Shown: positions 2,816-23,054, counted from the stretch's first letter. The stretch: 38,897 nucleotides of DNA from Symbiobacterium sp. (GCA_020725405.1 DYFB01000024.1:1-38897); one strand, 5' to 3'. The notes: generated from the letters alone by a model not told the origin. A program made the numbers and translations.

Positions 2816-4333
2816 ATGGAAGCCGTCCCTCCCCAGACCGAGCGGAACATCAGCTACAACGTCAGGCACGGAGTCGTCTCCGTTCTTGCCGCGAACCTCG
2901 TCGCTCCCTTTCTCGGTATCTTCGCCCTGCGCCTCGGGGCGTCGAACTTCCAGATAGCCCTTCTCTCCTCGGCGCCGGCCATCGTCTCCCTCCTGGTGAT
3001 GATTCCCGGGGCCGTCTACGTGGACCGGTTCCACCGCAAGAAGCGGGTCACGACGATGTTCATGCTGGCGAACCGGGTCTTCTACCTGATCCTCGCCGCC
3101 GTCCCGTTCCTTGACCCCGACCGCCGGGCCGCTGCTCTCGTCATCGCCGTGGCCCTGATGAACCTCCCCGGCGCCATCGGCAACGTAGCCTGGCAGTCCT
3201 TCATCTCGCGGGTCATCCCGCCGACACGGCGGGCCCAGGCTTTCGCCCGCCGCAACCGGGCGATGAACATCGTGGGGACCGTGGCCGTCGTCATTGCCGG
3301 CCGCGCCCTGGACATCATGAGCTTCCCCGTGAGCTATCAGGTGGTGTTCTGCCTGGGGTTCCTTATCGCCCTCGGGGAGATATACATCTTCCAGAGAATA
3401 GATGAGCCGGACGCCGGCCTCGAGCTATGCCCCGAGAGCGCGGACGGGAGCCGAGGGGCTGCGGCGGCCAGGCCGGTCGTGGGCCCGGCCGCGGCGGCGG
3501 GGACGGACCGGGGGGAGGGCCCGGCCGCGGCGGCGGGGACGGACCGGGGGGAGGGCCCGGCCGCGGCGGCGGGGACGGCCCGGGGGGAGGGCCCGGCCGT
3601 CTCTTCGGGGTGTGCGGGCCAGGGGGCCCGGTTGGGATGGGGGTCGTCGCGAAACGGCCGGGGCGAGCTACGCCGTCGTCTCATCCAGTTCCGGGGCTCC
3701 TTCCGCGAAGCGGTGGCCGACATCTTCGCCCACCCCCGCTTCATCCGGTTCACGCTGGCCTCCATGGTCTTCCACTTCATGTGGCAGACGGCCTGGCCGC
3801 TCTTCACGCTCTACCAGGTCAAGGTTCTCGGGGCCAACAACCTCTGGATCAGCCTGCTCACTCTGAGCAACACGGGCGGGGCCATCATCGGCTACGGCTT
3901 CTGGGCCTCCTTCGCCGACCGCCGCGGCCACCTGCGCTCCCTAGTCGTCTCGACCCTGGGCATCTTCATGGTCCCGCTCTACTACGCTTTCTCCCACAGC
4001 CTGACGACGATAACCGTCCTCAACTTCGCCACGGGAGCCGTCTTCGCCGGGGTCAACCTGTCCCTCTTCAACGTCCTTCTCGAGCACACCCCGGAGGAGC
4101 ACAAGACCACCTACATCGCCTACTACCACACGGCCATAACGCTCACCACGGTCTTCGCCCCGGTCTGCGGCGTCGCCCTCCTCGGCCTGCTCGGCTTCTT
4201 CTGGGCCTTCATCGCCTGCGCCGTCGGGCGGATTGTCGGCAGTATGGCCTTCTACCTGGTCCTCCGCTCCGAAGAGCGGGAGGTCGGCGCACAGCCGCCC
4301 GCGGCGGAGGCCTCCGGGGATCTTCCCGCCTAG
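2816..4333 (+). CDS. MFS transporter with a repeat-expanded central loop
   Basis: A 505-residue major facilitator family membrane protein; substrate unknown. Hydrophobic helices are seen in two halves, residues about 18-205 and 300-485, with an MFS-type loop after helix 2 (VDRFHRKKR). The loop joining the halves (about 206-285) is unusually long and made of Gly/Ala/Asp/Arg repeats. Three copies of a 12-residue unit (GPAAAAGTDRGE) lie at about 223-258, encoded by a 36 bp tandem repeat. The ATG at 2816 is chosen because the conserved N-terminal helix follows directly; no strong ribosome binding site is seen. The C-terminal half contains FNVLLEHTPEEHKTTYIAYYH, a pattern seen in uncharacterised bacterial MFS proteins. 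Role unknown, family confident. Confidence 0.88.
   Translation: MEAVPPQTERNISYNVRHGVVSVLAANLVAPFLGIFALRLGASNFQIALLSSAPAIVSLLVMIPGAVYVDRFHRKKRVTTMFMLANRVFYLILAAVPFLDPDRRAAALVIAVALMNLPGAIGNVAWQSFISRVIPPTRRAQAFARRNRAMNIVGTVAVVIAGRALDIMSFPVSYQVVFCLGFLIALGEIYIFQRIDEPDAGLELCPESADGSRGAAAARPVVGPAAAAGTDRGEGPAAAAGTDRGEGPAAAAGTARGEGPAVSSGCAGQGARLGWGSSRNGRGELRRRLIQFRGSFREAVADIFAHPRFIRFTLASMVFHFMWQTAWPLFTLYQVKVLGANNLWISLLTLSNTGGAIIGYGFWASFADRRGHLRSLVVSTLGIFMVPLYYAFSHSLTTITVLNFATGAVFAGVNLSLFNVLLEHTPEEHKTTYIAYYHTAITLTTVFAPVCGVALLGLLGFFWAFIACAVGRIVGSMAFYLVLRSEEREVGAQPPAAEASGDLPA
3482..3601 (+). repeat. 36 bp in-frame tandem repeat, 3.3 copies
   Basis: Units start at 3482, 3518 and 3554, with a partial copy from 3590. 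Units 1 and 2 are identical; unit 3 differs at one base. The repeat encodes the 12-residue Ala/Gly-rich unit in the cytoplasmic loop of the MFS protein, so changes in copy number would keep the frame. Confidence 0.95.
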
Positions 4334-4427
4334 CTCTTTTCTTGCTTCGACGGCTCCGTCTCGACACCCACATAGCCCCTCCCAGCCTCGGCAAGACTAG
4401 CCCCCAGCGGCGGGAGGTGAGACGGCT

Positions 4428-4715
4428 TTGGCCGTCAAGATAACCGAGGACTGCGTCTACTGCGGCGCCTGCGAACCGACCTGCCCCAACGACGCGATCA
4501 GTCCCGGGGACGACTACTACGTCGTTGACCCCGACCGCTGCACGGAATGCTTCGGGTTCTACACCGAGCAGCAGTGCACGGGCGTTTGCCCTACCGACGC
4601 CATCGTTCCGGACCCCGAGCACGAGGACAGCAAGGAGGACCTCCTCGCCCGCTACCGGGCTCTCCACCCGGATAGGCCGCCCGAGGAGGTCGACGCCTGG
4701 AACCCGCCCGATTGA
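4428..4715 (+). CDS. 2[4Fe-4S] ferredoxin, YfhL/Alvin type
   Basis: A 95-residue soluble electron carrier. The first cluster motif is CVYCGACEPTCP. The second is CTECFGFYTEQQCTGVCP, which carries the extra residues between its second and third cysteines typical of YfhL/Allochromatium-type low-potential ferredoxins. A C-terminal acidic helix (about 66-95) follows. The start is TTG at 4428, with GGGAGGTGAG about 8 nt upstream. A short GC hairpin (4716-4732) follows the stop. No partner oxidoreductase is adjacent, so the physiological partner is unknown. Confidence 0.93.
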   Translation: MAVKITEDCVYCGACEPTCPNDAISPGDDYYVVDPDRCTECFGFYTEQQCTGVCPTDAIVPDPEHEDSKEDLLARYRALHPDRPPEEVDAWNPPD

Positions 4716-15086: not shown

Positions 15087-16703
15087 GTGCCCGCGCAGCC
15101 CCCAGGCAAGAGGGAGACCGACTACCGTGTCATCCGGGCCCAAGAGGAGGAGAGGAAGCGTCTGGCCCGCGACCTCCACGACGGGCTTGTCCAGTCCCTC
15201 GTGGGGATGGGCCTTAATCTAGAGCTGGTCGAGAGGCACATCGAGGCCGATCCCGTCCGGAGACCCGAGGCCCTGGAGATACTGGCCCGGCTGAGGGAGC
15301 AGATCGCCGGGAGTCTCGAGGAGGCCCGGCGCATCCTCAGCGACCTCCGCCCGCTCGACCTCAACGGGCGAAGCCTCTCCCAGGCTCTCAAGGACTACGC
15401 CGAGCGGTTCTCGACCGCGGCCGGGCTGCGGATTACCGTCGTCATCTCCGGTCAGGAGACGCGGCTTCACCCCTCCCTCGAGGCCGGCCTGTTCCGCATC
15501 TTCCAGGAAGTCCTCAACAACGTCCGCGACCACGCCGAGGCGGCCGAGGTCTCGCTCAAGCTGCGCTTCCAGCCACGGGCCGTCTCCCTGGAAATAGCCG
15601 ACGACGGCCGGGGGTTCGCCTTCGACGGCGACCTCAAGAGCCTCGCCGCGCGAAGGTGCTTCGGCCTCATCGGCATCAACGAGCGGGTCGAGCTCCTCGG
15701 CGGCACCTGGCGCCTGAGCTCCGCGCCGGGCCGGGGCACCGAGGTCCGGGTGCGGCTCCCGGTCTCAAGCCAGGGGGGCTTCTGGAGCCTGCTCACCCAC
15801 ATCGGGTCTCTCCCGCGGGAGGGCCCGCGAGAGGCGCGGCTCGGGGGCGGGACCGGCTTCCGGAGCGCCTCCAGCGTGCCGGACGGGAGCGGCCCGGATC
15901 GAGCGGTCGGGCCGCCGGTCCGTGTGGCTCTGGCGGACGACCACCGTGTGGTCCGTGAGGGGCTGAAGATGATGTTCGAGACCACCGGCGGCTTCGAGGT
16001 GGTCGGGGAGGCCGGCGACGGAGGCGCGACCGTCCGGATGGTCAGGGAGCTCGTCCCGGATGTCCTGCTTCTTGACCTCGTCATGCCCGGCCCCGGTCCG
16101 CTCGAGGTTACCCGGGAGGTTCGCCGGGCTTCGCCTCGGACGGCCGTCCTCATCCTGACCGCCCATTACGAGCCCGAGCAGGTCCGTGAGCTCCTGGCCG
16201 CCGGGGTCGCCGGCTACCTCCTCAAGAGCTCCGACTCGGCCGAGCTCCTGGGGGCCGTGCTGGCGGCTCATCGGGGAGTGAGCCCTCTCTCCCCGGAGGC
16301 TCTCCGGGCCCTATCGGGCGGGCAAGCCGCGGAGGAGCGGGCCGAGGTGGGTCGGGCCGCGTCCGACGGCGCTTCCTCCGCCGCCTCTCCGGCCGGCCCT
16401 GCGCCTTCCGCCGCGGCCGCCCGGGGAGGGCCTGCACCGTCCCCGTCCCTGCCGCCGTCGGCCGGACCCGTCTCCGGCCCGGCCCCGGCCGCCCTGGCCG
16501 AGCTCACCCTCCGCGAGCGGGAGATACTGGCCCTGGTCGGCGAAGGCTACACCAACGAGGATATCTGCCGGAAGCTCTTCATCAGCGAGAAGACCGTCCG
16601 GAACCACCTCGGAGCCATCATCCGGAAGCTCGGGCTCAGCGACCGGACGCAGGTGGCCCTGGTCGCCCGAGGTCTCCGCCCGGCCTCGGGCCGGGGCCGG
16701 TAG
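15087..16703 (+). CDS. Fused NarL/DegS-type histidine kinase and LuxR-type response regulator
   Basis: A 538-residue cytoplasmic one-chain two-component protein. The kinase half has a HisKA_3 H-box with His31 (RLARDLHDGLVQSL), an N-box (FRIFQEVLNNVRDHA) and a G-box (DDGRGF, then GLIGINERVELLGG). After a ~45-residue linker the receiver (about 278-395) has the acidic pair Asp284/Asp285, phospho-acceptor Asp330 (LLLDLVMPG), Thr358 and Lys380. An Ala/Pro/Ser-rich linker (about 411-470) leads to a LuxR/GerE helix-turn-helix (473-538). No membrane or sensor domain precedes the H-box. DegS/DegU-like systems are normally two genes, so the full fusion is unusual. Start GTG 15087, GGAGGAGGGG upstream. 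Confidence 0.92.
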   Translation: MPAQPPGKRETDYRVIRAQEEERKRLARDLHDGLVQSLVGMGLNLELVERHIEADPVRRPEALEILARLREQIAGSLEEARRILSDLRPLDLNGRSLSQALKDYAERFSTAAGLRITVVISGQETRLHPSLEAGLFRIFQEVLNNVRDHAEAAEVSLKLRFQPRAVSLEIADDGRGFAFDGDLKSLAARRCFGLIGINERVELLGGTWRLSSAPGRGTEVRVRLPVSSQGGFWSLLTHIGSLPREGPREARLGGGTGFRSASSVPDGSGPDRAVGPPVRVALADDHRVVREGLKMMFETTGGFEVVGEAGDGGATVRMVRELVPDVLLLDLVMPGPGPLEVTREVRRASPRTAVLILTAHYEPEQVRELLAAGVAGYLLKSSDSAELLGAVLAAHRGVSPLSPEALRALSGGQAAEERAEVGRAASDGASSAASPAGPAPSAAAARGGPAPSPSLPPSAGPVSGPAPAALAELTLREREILALVGEGYTNEDICRKLFISEKTVRNHLGAIIRKLGLSDRTQVALVARGLRPASGRGR

Positions 16704-17925: not shown

Positions 17926-17954
17926 TTGACCCGCGCCTAGGGGAGTCCTATAAT
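17926..17954 (+). promoter_or_regulatory. SOS promoter of imuB-DUF6504-dnaE2
   Basis: TTGACC (17926-17931) and TATAAT (17949-17954) are spaced by exactly 17 bp, a near-consensus housekeeping promoter and the best in the window. Transcription would begin near 17961, at the LexA operator, 65-70 bp before the imuB start. Confidence 0.9.
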
Positions 17955-17962
17955 CGGAGTAC

Positions 17963-17976
17963 CGAACAAATGTTCG
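17963..17976. promoter_or_regulatory. LexA (DinR) operator
   Basis: CGAACAAATGTTCG is a perfect inverted repeat matching the Gram-positive LexA box CGAAC-N4-GTTCG. It overlaps the predicted transcription start of the promoter at 17926-17954, where a bound repressor would block initiation. Confidence 0.92.
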
Positions 17977-18027
17977 CCCTCAGGCCGCCCGGCGGCCGTT
18001 TTGCTCGGAGGGGGAGGGGAGGCCCGC

Positions 18028-19407
18028 GTGGGAGCTCCGGGTGTGGCGTGCGCTGTGGCCGTCGGGTTCTACGTGGCGGTTGAACGTCGGCTCCGGCCCT
18101 CGCTCGCGGGGAGGCCGGTCGCCGTCGTCCGCGACGGTCGAGCTATCGACCTTTCTTCTGACCTTCAGACCCGGGGATTGGTCCTCGGGACCGGCCGGAG
18201 CGCCCTCCTCCAGCTCTGCCCCGAGGCGGCCGTCGCGCCCTACGAGCCGGCCCGCTACGAGGAGGGCGGGCGGCTTCTCCTCGATCTCTACGCAAGGCAC
18301 GTCCCTGCCGTCGAGCCTCTTGACCTCACCCACGCCTTCCTTGACGTGGCCGGGGTCTCCCCGGATCCCTGTTCGCGCATCGGCCGGGAGGCCGCGATCG
18401 GGCTCGGGGTGACGGTCGGCTTCGGCCTCGGGCCGACGAAGCTCACCGCCCGCGCGGCCGGGCTGGAGCTCGTCGCCCGTGGTATCCGGCGGTCGGGGGA
18501 GACCCTCGCCGTTCCGGGCGACCTGAGCGGGACCGGCCCTGGAGGTGACGGGACCGCTCAGGTGAGGGCGTTTCTCGCCCCCCTGCCTGTGTCGTACCTC
18601 TACCCCCTGCCGGATGGAGTCGCCGAGAGGTTGGCCCGCCTGGGGTTCGGGACCATCGGCGAGGTGCAGGGTCTTCCCCTCCGCGAACTCGCCCGCCAGT
18701 TCGGCTGGCCGCTTGCCCGCCGGATAGCCGAGGCCGCGGAGGGGGGAGCGGCCGACCGCGTCCGCCCGGCCTGGCCGCCTCCCGCCCTCAGCGTCTCCCG
18801 GACCTTCGAAGGGGGCCTGGTCGACCGGGAGGGACTCGTCCGGACCCTCCGCGAGGCGGCCGGCCGCCTCGCCCGGGAGATGACCGGGCGCGGCCAGGCG
18901 TCCGACGAGGTCCGGCTGGTCTTCCTGACCGAAGGCGGGCGGCGCCTCGAGGCCTCCCGGCGCCTGGCGCGGCCGACCCGCTCCCCGGTGACCCTGGAGT
19001 GCATCTTGGCCGCCCTGGCCGGACGCCTCCTCCCGGCCGGTGGCGAACCTCCGGTGGCGATGGAGGCCCGGGTCGGGCGGGTCCGCCCCCTTCCAGCCGC
19101 CCAGCTCGAGTTCGGCTTCGGGGGCGGGGGAGGCCTCTCCGCCCCACCGCTCCCGGCGGGGGGGATAGGCCGGGAAGAAGCGCGGGACGTGGCTCGGGAG
19201 CTGGCCTGGTGCTTCGGGGGGAAGGTCCTCGCCGGCCCGGGCGAGGATGGGCTTCCCGCACCGGCTGGCTCTTCCGGGACCGCGGTGAAGGCCGGGGGCA
19301 CCGGAGCCGGCGGGGCCGGGGACTGCGGGGACATTGCGGCCGCGGCCCGCCGCTCGAGACGGGAGCGCTTGCTCATCTTCTACGATCCGCTCCGCGCCGG
19401 TGCCTAG
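18028..19407 (+). CDS. imuB: ImuB-like, catalytically dead Y-family polymerase homologue
   Basis: A 459-residue Y-family protein whose catalytic acids are gone. Where active Pol IV/Dpo4 have D-x-D before the FYA-x-VE motif, this protein has V10-A-V12 (AVAVGFYVAVE). Where they have the S-x-D-E block it has Thr101-His102 (LDLTHAFLDV). The palm, a helix-hairpin-like region (LARLGFGTIGEVQGLPL) and a little-finger domain (ALSVSRTFEGG) remain. QLEFGF at residues 359-364 could be a beta-clamp binding motif. The start is GTG at 18028 with GGGAGGGGAGG 5 nt upstream; TTG at 18001 is also open. It is the first gene of a LexA-controlled operon and is expected to bridge DnaE2 to the clamp. No ImuA gene precedes it. 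Confidence 0.88.
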   Translation: MGAPGVACAVAVGFYVAVERRLRPSLAGRPVAVVRDGRAIDLSSDLQTRGLVLGTGRSALLQLCPEAAVAPYEPARYEEGGRLLLDLYARHVPAVEPLDLTHAFLDVAGVSPDPCSRIGREAAIGLGVTVGFGLGPTKLTARAAGLELVARGIRRSGETLAVPGDLSGTGPGGDGTAQVRAFLAPLPVSYLYPLPDGVAERLARLGFGTIGEVQGLPLRELARQFGWPLARRIAEAAEGGAADRVRPAWPPPALSVSRTFEGGLVDREGLVRTLREAAGRLAREMTGRGQASDEVRLVFLTEGGRRLEASRRLARPTRSPVTLECILAALAGRLLPAGGEPPVAMEARVGRVRPLPAAQLEFGFGGGGGLSAPPLPAGGIGREEARDVARELAWCFGGKVLAGPGEDGLPAPAGSSGTAVKAGGTGAGGAGDCGDIAAAARRSRRERLLIFYDPLRAGA

Positions 19408-19651
19408 GTTCATCGAGCGACCGCTGGAGCAGGTGGGGCTGGGCCCGGGCGGGCGCCCCCTCTTCCTGCGCTGGCGAGGCCGGTCCTGGCGGGTGACCCG
19501 GACGGCCGACGTGTGGAAGGACGTCGGCTGCTGGTGGGAAGAGGAGGGGGAGAAGGTGTTCTACCGCCTCGAGGTCGACGGCGGCCGGTTGTTCGAGGTG
19601 TACCTCGACCGCCGGACGGGGAAGTGGTTTCTCTACCGTGTCTACGATTGA
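19400..19651 (+). CDS. DUF6504 family small protein of the mutasome operon
   Basis: An 83-residue soluble protein. The strand-rich pattern PLFLRWRGRSWRVTRTADVW, CWWEEEGEKVFYRLEVDGG, and a C-terminal RTGKWFLYRVYD match my recollection of DUF6504 proteins, found beside imuB and dnaE2 in Actinobacteria and some other phyla. GTG at 19400 overlaps the imuB stop by 8 bp, and its own end overlaps dnaE2 by 14 bp, so the three are tightly coupled. The biochemical role is unknown. Its position in an SOS operon lacking imuA suggests an accessory part of the translesion complex (inference). Confidence 0.8.
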   Translation: MPRFIERPLEQVGLGPGGRPLFLRWRGRSWRVTRTADVWKDVGCWWEEEGEKVFYRLEVDGGRLFEVYLDRRTGKWFLYRVYD

Positions 19652-22600
19652 GTTCGCCCATCTCCACTTCCACTCGCCCTTCTCTTTCCTCGACGGCGCC
19701 GCCCGGCTGGAGGAGGCTCTGCCGATGGCGGCGGATAAGGGTCTCCGGGCTCTGGCCCTTACCGACCACGACAATGTCTCCGGCGCCGTGCTCTTCCAGC
19801 GCCTGGCCCTGGAGGCGGGCGTGAAGCCCATCCAGGGGGCGGAGGTGACCCTGGAGGGAGGGCGGCACCTCACTTTGCTCGCCCGGGGGCCGGAGGGCTA
19901 CGCCACCCTCTGCTGCCTCCTCACCCGGGCCCACCTCGGGCCTCTCCTTACCCGAGCCCACCTCGGGTCTCCCAGGCGCCGCCCCGTTCTGACCTGGGCC
20001 GACCTCGAGGATGTCGTCGGGCGTGGAGGAGGGGTGGCCGGCGGTCGGACCGGCTGCTCCGGGCCCGGCCTCATCGCCCTTTCCGGCTGCCGCCGCGGTG
20101 AGATACCTTCCCTTCTCCTGGCCGGGAGGATGGCGGAGGCCCACCGGGCGGCAGCCCGCTACCTCGACCTCTTCGGCCGCGATGGTTTCGCCCTCGAGGT
20201 CCAGCGGGAGTTCCTCCCCGGTGGGTCGCGCCTGGAGGCCGGCCTGGTCGAACTAACCCGGAAGCTGGGCCTCCGCCTCGTGGCCACGAACAACGTCCAC
20301 TACGTCTGCAAAGAGGACTTCTGGGTTCACGACCTCCTGACATGCGCCCGGACCTTGACCACGGTCGAGGACGTCCACCCCGAGCGCCGCCTCAACGCCG
20401 AGAACTACCTCAAGTCGCCCGCGGCCATGACCCGCCTGTTCGCCGACCTCCCCGAGGCGGTCCGGGGGGCGGTGGAGATAGCCGAGTCCTGCTCCCCGGC
20501 CCTCGTCCCGGGGAGGAGGCTCCACCCCGCCTTCCCTCTCCCCTCCGGGGAGACGTCGTCCGCGGCTTTCCTTCGGAAAATGACCCTGGCCGGAGCCACC
20601 CGGCGCTACGGGCGGGTCAGCCGGCGCGTCCGGGAGCGCCTGGAGACCGAGCTCGACGTCATCTGCCGGCTGGGCTACGAGGACTACTTCCTTCTTGTCT
20701 GGGACCTCTGCCTTTACGCCCGCCGCCGGGGAATCCGCTTCGCCGGCCGGGGCTCGGCCGCCGACTCGGCCGTGGCCTACTGCCTCGGGATAACCAACGT
20801 GGACGCCGTCGGGCGGGGCCTCCTCTTCGAGCGCTTCATGAGCCTTGAGAGGGGGGAGAAGCCGGACATCGACATCGACTTCGACGCCCGCTACCGTGAC
20901 GAGGTCGCCGCCTATGTAACGGCCCGTTACGGCGGAGAGACCGGGCGGGCGTGGGGCGGGGCGGGCGGCGCGGCGGCTGGCGGCCCGGCTGCGGGCGGGG
21001 ATGCGGTGTGGGGCGGGGCGGGCGGCGCGGCGGCTGGCGGCCCGGCCGCGGGCGGGGGTGCGGCGTGGGCCGGGACGGGCGGCGCGGCGGCGGTGGGCCC
21101 GCGGGTGGCTTCCGTGTGCACCTACAATACCTTTCACGCCCGGTCGGCCGTCCGGGACCTCGGTAAGGCCCTCGGCCTTCCGCCCGCGGACCTCGACCGG
21201 TTGGCCAGGCACCTCCCCTACGCCGGCGGCGCGGACATCCCCTCCCTTCTCGAGTCCCTCCCGGAGCTCCGCGACAGCGGTCTCCCCTTCTGGAAGTTCG
21301 AGAGGCTCTTCGCCGCCGCCGCGAAGGTGGCCGGCTTTCCCCGCCACCTCGGGACCCATCTGGGAGGGCTCGTCGTCTGCCGGGAGCCCCTGACGACGGT
21401 CACGCCGCTGCAGTGGGCGGCCAAGGGGGTCGTGGTCTGCCAGTTCGACAAGGAGTACGTCGAGGACCTCGGTCTCATCAAGCTCGACCTTCTCTCCCTC
21501 CGGACCCTCTCGGCCGTCAACCAGGCCGCGACGGAGCTCGGCGACGGCTTCGACTACGACGCCATCCCGCCAGCCGACCCGGCCACTATGGCCATGATCC
21601 GGCGCGGGGAGACGGTGGGGGTCTTCCAGCTCGAGAGTCCGGCCCAGCGGGCCCTGCAGGCCCGGCTCGGGGTGACGAGCTACGAGGACCTCGTGGCCAG
21701 CGTGGCCCTCATCCGTCCCGGGCCGATAAGGGGGAACATGGTCGAGCCGTTCCTCGCCCGCCGCCGGGGTTTCGAGCCGGTCACCTATCTCCATCCGGCG
21801 CTCGAGCCCATCCTTAAGAAGACCTACGGGGTGGTTCTCTTCCAGGAGCAGGTCATCGAGATAGCCGTGGCTGTGGCCGGCTTCAGCCCCGGCGAGGCCG
21901 ACCGCCTGCGGCGGGTGATGACCCACCACCGCCGCGGCCCGGAGATGGAGGACATCGGCCGCCTCTTTGTGACCCGGGCCGTCGAGCGTGGCGTCGACGA
22001 GGAAACCGCCCGGCGCATCTTCGCCGGCATGGAGGGCTACGCGAGCTACGGGTTTTGCGAGGCCCACGCCGCCGCCTTCGCCGACACCGCCTACCGGACG
22101 GCCTACCTCGCCAGGCACCATCCGGCGGAGTTCTTCGCCGCCCTCTTCTCCCAGCAGCCGATGGGCTACTACCCCCCGGGGACGCTCTGCGTCGAGGCAG
22201 CCCGCCGCGGGGTCCGGGTCCTGCCGCCCGACGTGAACCTGAGCGGGGCCTGCTACCTCGTCGAGAAGGTCGAGGGCGCCGGCGGGGCGGGAAGCCTCGA
22301 GGGCGGCGAGGCTCGGGCCCGGACGAAGGGGGTACGGGTGTCCCTCCGGCAGGTCAAGGGGATGCAGCGGCGGGCGCTGGAGGCCATCCTCGGGGAGAGG
22401 GAGGAAAGGGGGCCCTTCTCCTCCCTTTGGGACTTCTGCCGCCGGTGCTGCCCGCCGGTGCCGCGCGACGTGGTGGAGGCCCTCATCCTCTGCGGGGCCT
22501 TCGACAGTCTCGACCCGAACCGCCGCCGCCTTCTCTGGGAGCTCCCGGGAGCCCTGTCGACGGCGCGGGGAGGGCCGGGGCTCCTGGAGGAGGGTGCCGA

Positions 22601-23054
22601 TCCGGCCGGCGCGGGCCCACCGGCGGAGGGCGGCGTCCGGGACTTCACCGCCGGGGAGAAGATGCTCCACGAGTACGATATCCTGGGGTTCTCGCCGGAG
22701 AGCCACCTCCTGGCCTACCTCCGCCCGCGTCTCGAGCGCTCGGGCTTCCTGTCATCGGCCGACCTGGGGAGGGCCCCCGCGGGGCGGCGGGTGAGGGTCG
22801 CCGGGCTCACCGTCCGGCCGCACCGCCCACCCACGAGAAGCGGGAGGACGGTCGTCTTCCTTTCCCTGGAGGACGAGAAGGGACTCATCGACGTGACCGT
22901 CTTCGACCGGGTCTACCAGCGGTACGGCCGACTCCTCTTCGCCGACCCATCCCCGCCGCTCGCGGTGGAGGGAACGGTCGAGCGGCGCGGGAGGGCGGTC
23001 ACTGTCGTCGCCCGCCGTATCGAGACCCTGGCCGCGGCCCTCGATCCGCCCTGA
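19638..23054 (+). CDS. dnaE2: Error-prone DNA polymerase III alpha subunit DnaE2
   Basis: A 1138-residue C-family polymerase for translesion synthesis after DNA damage. Order: PHP domain (HLHFHSPFSFLDG at 8-20, LTDHDN), palm with GRGSAADSAVAYCLG, the catalytic pair Asp410/Asp412 in KPDIDIDFD, the third Asp617 in IKLDLLSLRTL, fingers (FQLESPAQRALQ, LIRPGPI, LFQEQVIEIA), HhH region, and a C-terminal OB domain (about 1045-1130). Short overall size and lack of a C-terminal tau-binding part fit DnaE2 rather than DnaE1. A ~52-residue Gly/Ala/Trp repeat insert (about 436-487) lies soon after the catalytic pair, and a 9-residue duplication near residue 95. GTG at 19638 overlaps the DUF6504 gene. Confidence 0.95.
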   Translation: MSTIEFAHLHFHSPFSFLDGAARLEEALPMAADKGLRALALTDHDNVSGAVLFQRLALEAGVKPIQGAEVTLEGGRHLTLLARGPEGYATLCCLLTRAHLGPLLTRAHLGSPRRRPVLTWADLEDVVGRGGGVAGGRTGCSGPGLIALSGCRRGEIPSLLLAGRMAEAHRAAARYLDLFGRDGFALEVQREFLPGGSRLEAGLVELTRKLGLRLVATNNVHYVCKEDFWVHDLLTCARTLTTVEDVHPERRLNAENYLKSPAAMTRLFADLPEAVRGAVEIAESCSPALVPGRRLHPAFPLPSGETSSAAFLRKMTLAGATRRYGRVSRRVRERLETELDVICRLGYEDYFLLVWDLCLYARRRGIRFAGRGSAADSAVAYCLGITNVDAVGRGLLFERFMSLERGEKPDIDIDFDARYRDEVAAYVTARYGGETGRAWGGAGGAAAGGPAAGGDAVWGGAGGAAAGGPAAGGGAAWAGTGGAAAVGPRVASVCTYNTFHARSAVRDLGKALGLPPADLDRLARHLPYAGGADIPSLLESLPELRDSGLPFWKFERLFAAAAKVAGFPRHLGTHLGGLVVCREPLTTVTPLQWAAKGVVVCQFDKEYVEDLGLIKLDLLSLRTLSAVNQAATELGDGFDYDAIPPADPATMAMIRRGETVGVFQLESPAQRALQARLGVTSYEDLVASVALIRPGPIRGNMVEPFLARRRGFEPVTYLHPALEPILKKTYGVVLFQEQVIEIAVAVAGFSPGEADRLRRVMTHHRRGPEMEDIGRLFVTRAVERGVDEETARRIFAGMEGYASYGFCEAHAAAFADTAYRTAYLARHHPAEFFAALFSQQPMGYYPPGTLCVEAARRGVRVLPPDVNLSGACYLVEKVEGAGGAGSLEGGEARARTKGVRVSLRQVKGMQRRALEAILGEREERGPFSSLWDFCRRCCPPVPRDVVEALILCGAFDSLDPNRRRLLWELPGALSTARGGPGLLEEGADPAGAGPPAEGGVRDFTAGEKMLHEYDILGFSPESHLLAYLRPRLERSGFLSSADLGRAPAGRRVRVAGLTVRPHRPPTRSGRTVVFLSLEDEKGLIDVTVFDRVYQRYGRLLFADPSPPLAVEGTVERRGRAVTVVARRIETLAAALDPP
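19917..19970 (+). repeat. 27 bp in-frame duplication in dnaE2
   Basis: Copies at 19917-19943 and 19944-19970 are nearly identical and encode LLTRAHLGP/LLTRAHLGS, duplicating a 9-residue piece of the PHP domain region. Confidence 0.9.
20951..21098 (+). repeat. 57 bp in-frame tandem repeat inside dnaE2
   Basis: Copies start at 20951, 21008 and 21065 (third partial). The period is 57 bp, or 19 residues ([16 protein letters not shown] type). It makes a Gly/Ala linker in the polymerase palm/fingers region without shifting the frame. Confidence 0.95.

Follow-up and report, generated by a model that had tools for sequence, protein, structure and literature searches.

Can an SOS mutasome be assembled without ImuA, and what would then stand in its place? 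This question is raised by an operon of three overlapping genes, encoding an ImuB-like protein, a DUF6504 protein and the C-family DNA polymerase DnaE2, that lie behind a predicted LexA operator in a stretch of 38,897 nucleotides from Symbiobacterium sp. (GCA_020725405.1, DYFB01000024.1:1-38897; hereafter the window, meaning this whole stretch), which is contig C15 of a draft genome of 2.23 Mb (97 contigs, 95.35% complete). An earlier note on this DNA had read the locus as a compact version of the ImuA-ImuB-DnaE2 operon that apparently lacks ImuA and carries DUF6504 as an extra gene. The open reading frames (ORFs) and the Pfam matches (IMS, 2.1e-15; IMS_C; DUF6504, 2.2e-10; DNA_pol3_alpha, 3e-70) bear out the three overlapping genes for a Y-family homologue, a DUF6504 protein and a C-family polymerase, and comparison with related loci indicates that they very probably form an SOS mutagenesis operon of the DnaE2X-iPolY-ImuB-C-RecA kind, where iPolY denotes a catalytically inactive Y-family polymerase homologue.

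One part of the earlier reading that was not borne out is the status of DUF6504 as an additional component, since this domain matches the C-termini of ImuB proteins. The Pfam DUF6504 model matches the C-terminus of a canonical fused ImuB from Geminicoccaceae (residues 430-501 of 505) over the cut-off (E = 4.6e-6), and also yields E = 2e-4 with the C-terminus of the Sphingomonas ImuB (407-478 of 483) and E = 4e-3 with that of the Agrobacterium ImuB. In a profile-to-profile comparison (hhalign), DUF6504 and ImuB-C, the domain defined by Aravind et al. in 2013 (PMC3765255), matched at 94% across 66 of 71 columns; the reversed profile gave 1.7%, and all controls (reversed, RecA and ImuA) stayed below 2%. 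The same comparison with the tail of the T. roseum ImuB alone was not significant. The AlphaFold2 model of DUF6504 is all beta (predicted local distance difference test, pLDDT, 91) and resembles no solved structure (best E = 0.5), a sequence search of the PDB gave no match either, and ImuB-C has likewise been reported as an all-beta domain without a resembling solved structure (PMC12926913). As judged from sequence and model, DUF6504 corresponds to ImuB-C encoded as a gene of its own and, therefore, the operon encodes a split ImuB. No mention of DUF6504 was found in the literature searched.

The first gene encodes the remainder of this split protein. At the positions where DinB has HVDMD and SSIDE, iPolY has CAVAV and LDLTH, so that the DxD and DE catalytic motifs are both lost, and the same loss is seen in the aligned relatives (no statistic is drawn from a pattern count at the SIDE position, because 33 of the 81 proteins were too divergent or truncated for it). 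The description of this protein as an inactive, ImuB-like Y-family homologue is thus upheld by the replaced catalytic residues. The AlphaFold2 model (pLDDT 85.5) has a confident Y-family body, with Pol IV, Pol iota and Rev1 as the closest solved folds; behind this body comes a flexible tail that contains two helices. Such retention of the overall fold in a confident model would suit a working translesion polymerase with DnaE2 as its partner, as in the PolY-DnaE2 pairs of Bacteroidetes; however, with both catalytic motifs gone, a separate DinB in the same genome that keeps both of its motifs intact, and some relatives so short that the palm and fingers appear to be missing, this alternative is extremely improbable and was rejected on the catalytic residues. 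The system with an active Y-family polymerase subunit shares with the present operon the clamp motif, the RecA N-terminal (RecA-NT)-like motif as found across the iPolY group, the tail and a small beta-rich partner, whereas here DnaE2 would be the active polymerase. The short relatives (L118, L142, L128 and L145), of 312-345 amino acids, appear to retain the thumb, the little finger and the tail.

Three elements follow each other in the tail of iPolY, namely, the clamp-type motif QLEFGF, a stretch resembling RecA's N-terminal helix, and finally RRERLLIFYDPLR. A loosely defined Q-x-x-L-[F/W]-like motif is present in 55 of the 71 proteins of the iPolY group, and a RecA-NT-like motif is found at p<=0.05 in 28 of the 71 compared with 3.6 expected (EREQLLERTMFSIEGRFGANTIELAG is an example); in mycobacterial ImuB, the RecA-NT motif has been shown experimentally to bind ImuA' (Santos et al., PMC11791113). 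At the very end, R445, E446 and L449 are near-invariant across 49 aligned proteins, with the consensus RRExxLxxWDPxR, and our guess is that this conserved tail is a docking site for ImuB-C.

The third gene encodes a polymerase whose active site is intact. The catalytic residues D410, D412 and D617 of DnaE2 are invariant among the relatives in the alignment and one further C-family polymerase, DnaE1, was found in the genome (contig C91), in agreement with the proposal of a C-family, putatively error-prone DnaE2 in the earlier note. One metal ligand of the PHP domain is Asn in DnaE2 compared with Asp in DnaE1 of the same genome (ATND.H). In the phylogenetic tree, the DnaE2 proteins of Bacillota and Armatimonadota cluster together (support 99), and the ImuA-linked DnaE2 of proteobacteria, DnaE2A, is separate from them (support 100).

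Just as the earlier note had it, there is no imuA gene immediately upstream of the operon; by ORFs and Pfam, this region has a kinase/response regulator gene, a gene for a DUF1844 protein and one small divergent ORF. A search of the whole genome for imuA or imuA', which that note had set as a refuting test, was run and returned no imuA in the draft: the RecA, NCBIfam ImuA and five-ImuA profiles gave RecA (E = 6e-17 with the five-ImuA profile) and otherwise sub-threshold noise. No fused imuB was found in the draft either. Across 61 genomes, comprising this one and 60 relatives, several of which are single-contig, the five-ImuA profile matched RecA in 57 and gave no credible ImuA in any, and none of the 121 loci examined had a match to ImuA. 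In some relatives, extra genes lie between DUF6504 and dnaE2; rather than ImuA, they seem to be unrelated insertions (for example, a divergent trpS-like gene or a transporter). The operon could still belong to a canonical ImuA-ImuB-DnaE2 mutasome with an imuA at some other place that escaped detection because it is unassembled or too divergent, given a genome that is 95% complete in 97 contigs, the fast evolution of ImuA, and a curated ImuA model that exceeded its cut-off in 0 of 14 control genomes, Caulobacter included. Against this stand the profile results in the genome itself, the same absence in the 60 relatives, the separate ImuB-C, which is fused in canonical ImuB, and the reported lack of imuA in genomes that carry the DnaE2X-iPolY-ImuB-C-RecA module (PMC6511836, PMC12926913), and we consider a missed imuA very unlikely.

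The promoter and the operator at the start point proposed earlier were both confirmed. The promoter is the sole sigma-70-like site between 17500 and 23300 (0.1 expected in shuffles), and the operator, which starts eight bases past it, has no second copy anywhere in the window (0.07 such sites expected). In the complete 2.23-Mb draft, CGAAC-N4-GTTCG occurs five times, namely, before lexA, before uvrA-uvrC, at the mutasome operon and at two other sites (contigs C29 and C79), which fit the RNRY core poorly, have no recognised repair gene behind them and were rejected as SOS boxes. A relaxed LexA consensus adds a second box of lexA and a box before a DEAH-box helicase gene (TIGR03817 type), along with a small number of sites that lie within unrelated genes or ahead of them. 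There is no recognisable LexA box upstream of recA (contig C4), although lexA (two boxes), uvrA and the mutasome operon all have boxes. Among the relatives, GAAC-N4-GTTC is present within 250 bases upstream of the iPolY gene in 35 of 77 loci, where the local background would yield about 1.2, the 77 including related, non-independent loci. Because the same class of box is seen at lexA, uvrA and the helicase gene, and because boxes are enriched upstream of the operon in relatives, the predicted LexA (SOS) control is well supported, as is the corresponding suggestion of the earlier note.

Several observations weigh against the assignment to the DnaE2X-iPolY-ImuB-C-RecA kind. The DnaE2 tree held no published DnaE2X reference, which bears on the DnaE2X label. 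The RecA-NT-like stretch of the iPolY in the window is degenerate (p = 0.86 when taken alone), and the match of iPolY tails to RecA by hhalign is weak (probability 2%), even if it lands on RecA columns 9-31, which the reversed control does not. The draft, at its stated completeness, leaves room for an unassembled imuA. Finally, dnaE2 contains a tandem repeat that adds about 54 Gly/Ala-rich residues to the loop just past the PDIDID active site, and this species-specific insert could impair the polymerase. That loop has exactly 12 residues in 61 of 63 DnaE2 frames and the insert is found in none of the relatives; it also splits the Pfam match of DnaE2, all of which is compatible with a module that is decaying in this species, with DnaE2 non-functional or less active. 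However, a repeat unit of 57 bp (3 x 19) preserves the reading frame, and the active site, the operator and the remainder of the 1138-residue dnaE2 frame show no damage, so decay is an unlikely scenario. The repeat may be a genuine minisatellite or an assembly artefact.

If the operon indeed is a mutasome of the DnaE2X-iPolY-ImuB-C-RecA kind, its mode of action can be tentatively outlined. LexA bound to the operator at the transcription start would keep the operon off; upon DNA damage, RecA filaments would form, LexA would be cleaved, and the three genes would be co-expressed, their translation being coupled. The dead Y-family protein would then serve as a scaffold that holds the sliding clamp through QLEFGF and, through its RecA-NT-like helix, a RecA subunit in ImuA's stead, while the RRExxLxxWDPxR tail and the thumb would hold the separate ImuB-C (DUF6504) and DnaE2. 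ImuB-C would bridge to the PHP domain of DnaE2, and DnaE2 would perform error-prone, and presumably mutagenic, synthesis past lesions.

A compact, ImuA-less operon is not new with this organism: the module appeared in print in 2019 and received its class in 2026 (PMC6511836, PMC12926913). Timinskas and Venclovas reported operons without ImuA that combine an inactive Y-family protein with a standalone ImuB-C and with DnaE2, for example, in Kyrpidia tusciae, and proposed RecA in place of ImuA (PMC6511836); the 2026 survey named the type DnaE2X-iPolY-ImuBC-RecA, gave AlphaFold models of the complex and suggested that it is ancestral to ImuA-ImuB-DnaE2 rather than a derivative (PMC12926913). By its gene content, the operon in the window belongs to this already described kind: it shares with the Kyrpidia-type module the inactive Y-family protein, the standalone ImuB-C and DnaE2, the lack of a detected ImuA or fused ImuB in the genome, and the RecA-NT-like motif in the group. 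Unlike in that module as published, a direct LexA box is documented here and DUF6504 is identified as the ImuB-C protein. The ImuA-ImuB-DnaE2 mutasome of Mycobacterium, Caulobacter and Pseudomonas is likewise a LexA-controlled cassette with a dead Y-family scaffold that carries a clamp motif, an error-prone DnaE2 and ImuB-C, whereas the present operon is without ImuA and has ImuB-C in a separate frame. The Streptomyces scDinB2-DnaE2 system (DnaE2B-iPolY-RecA) also combines a dead Y-family protein with DnaE2 in the absence of ImuA but has no ImuB-C. This work adds the LexA boxes, the link between DUF6504 and ImuB-C, the distribution across Bacillota and the conserved iPolY tail.

The order iPolY-DUF6504-dnaE2 is the usual one among the relatives and the named Bacillota loci, which include Thermincola, Syntrophomonas, Desulforudis, Ammonifex, Limnochordales, Fermentithermobacillaceae and many others, and 81 distinct iPolY proteins are encoded directly before DUF6504; these counts are not an estimate of prevalence because the named set was drawn by DnaE2 similarity. 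The ImuA-less, split-ImuB operon is the ordinary form among the relatives of this organism, and, whereas the Kyrpidia-type module was published as a small group, it is common here among Bacillota draft genomes. DUF6504 as such is present in 77 of 300 genomes sampled across the phylum, a number that includes unlinked copies. In the genome studied here, a second DUF6504 protein, of 131 amino acids, is encoded directly downstream of dnaB (L205, 1489-1884; contig C6, about 4300-4632) and scores better with Pfam (E = 2.8e-20) than the operon copy; similar unlinked copies occur in two other genomes (G004 and G021). Pairs of iPolY and DUF6504 without an adjacent dnaE2 were seen at L047 (G022), L052 (G018), and L053 and L060 (G033, G051).

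An unnamed Pfam domain is thereby tied to a known part of the mutasome, and a LexA-boxed form with a split ImuB and no ImuA turns out to be widespread in uncultured Bacillota. Conceivably, in several deep lineages of Bacillota the SOS mutasome with a split ImuB is the original form and prevails to this day, with the RRExxLxxWDPxR tail as a dedicated dock for DUF6504, whose fold would be new, and with RecA in the position of ImuA; we regard this broader proposal as tentative and, on balance, slightly more likely to fail than to hold. The combination of iPolY, ImuB-C, DnaE2 and RecA from many diverse species would make a handy system for testing RecA in the role of ImuA.

Features of the operon, in positions of the window
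Feature	Position	Strand	Basis or remark
Promoter, -35 TTGACC, 17-bp spacer, -10 TATAAT	17926..17954	+	11/12 consensus matches
LexA operator (predicted) CGAACAAATGTTCG, perfect CGAAC-N4-GTTCG palindrome, fits CGAACRNRYGTTCG	17963..17976	+	
Ribosome-binding site GGAGGGGGAGGGGAGG ahead of GTG 18028	18007..18022	+	Sequence
imuB-like gene for iPolY, the inactive Y-family homologue, 459 aa	18028..19407	+	Pfam IMS/IMS_C, lost catalytic residues, AlphaFold2
QLEFGF, likely sliding-clamp-binding motif	19102..19119	+	Position and pattern
RecA-NT-like helix REEARDVARELAWCFGGKVLAG, proposed RecA docking site	19171..19236	+	Group motif; helix 380-396 in model
Conserved C-terminal tail RRERLLIFYDPLR	19357..19395	+	Alignment, tail consensus
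DUF6504, standalone ImuB-C domain, 83 aa	19400..19651	+	Pfam, profile comparison, AlphaFold2
dnaE2, putative error-prone C-family polymerase	19638..23054	+	Pfam, active-site alignment, tree
Tandem repeat inside dnaE2, in frame, unit of 57 bp, 2.5 copies (93% alike)	20948..21091	+	Absent from all relatives examined

The maximal ORF of the imuB-like gene opens at 18001, and GTG 18028 is the likely start because it is preceded by the strong ribosome site GGAGGGGAGG. For DUF6504, the most likely start is GTG 19400, which gives an 8-base overlap with the stop of the imuB-like gene, and dnaE2 overlaps DUF6504 by 14 bases. Between the operator and the first gene, a GC-rich stem, GGCCGCCCGGCGGCC, at 17983-17997 is followed by GTTTTG and looks terminator-like; such matches are at the chance expectation for this base composition. 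Spo0A was found in the genome (E = 3.6e-46), in line with the earlier view of a likely spore-former, and the host probably is a sporulating Bacillota bacterium. Further upstream in the window, at 15087-16703, a HisKA_3 sensor kinase, a complete response regulator and a LuxR-type DNA-binding domain are fused in a single ORF.
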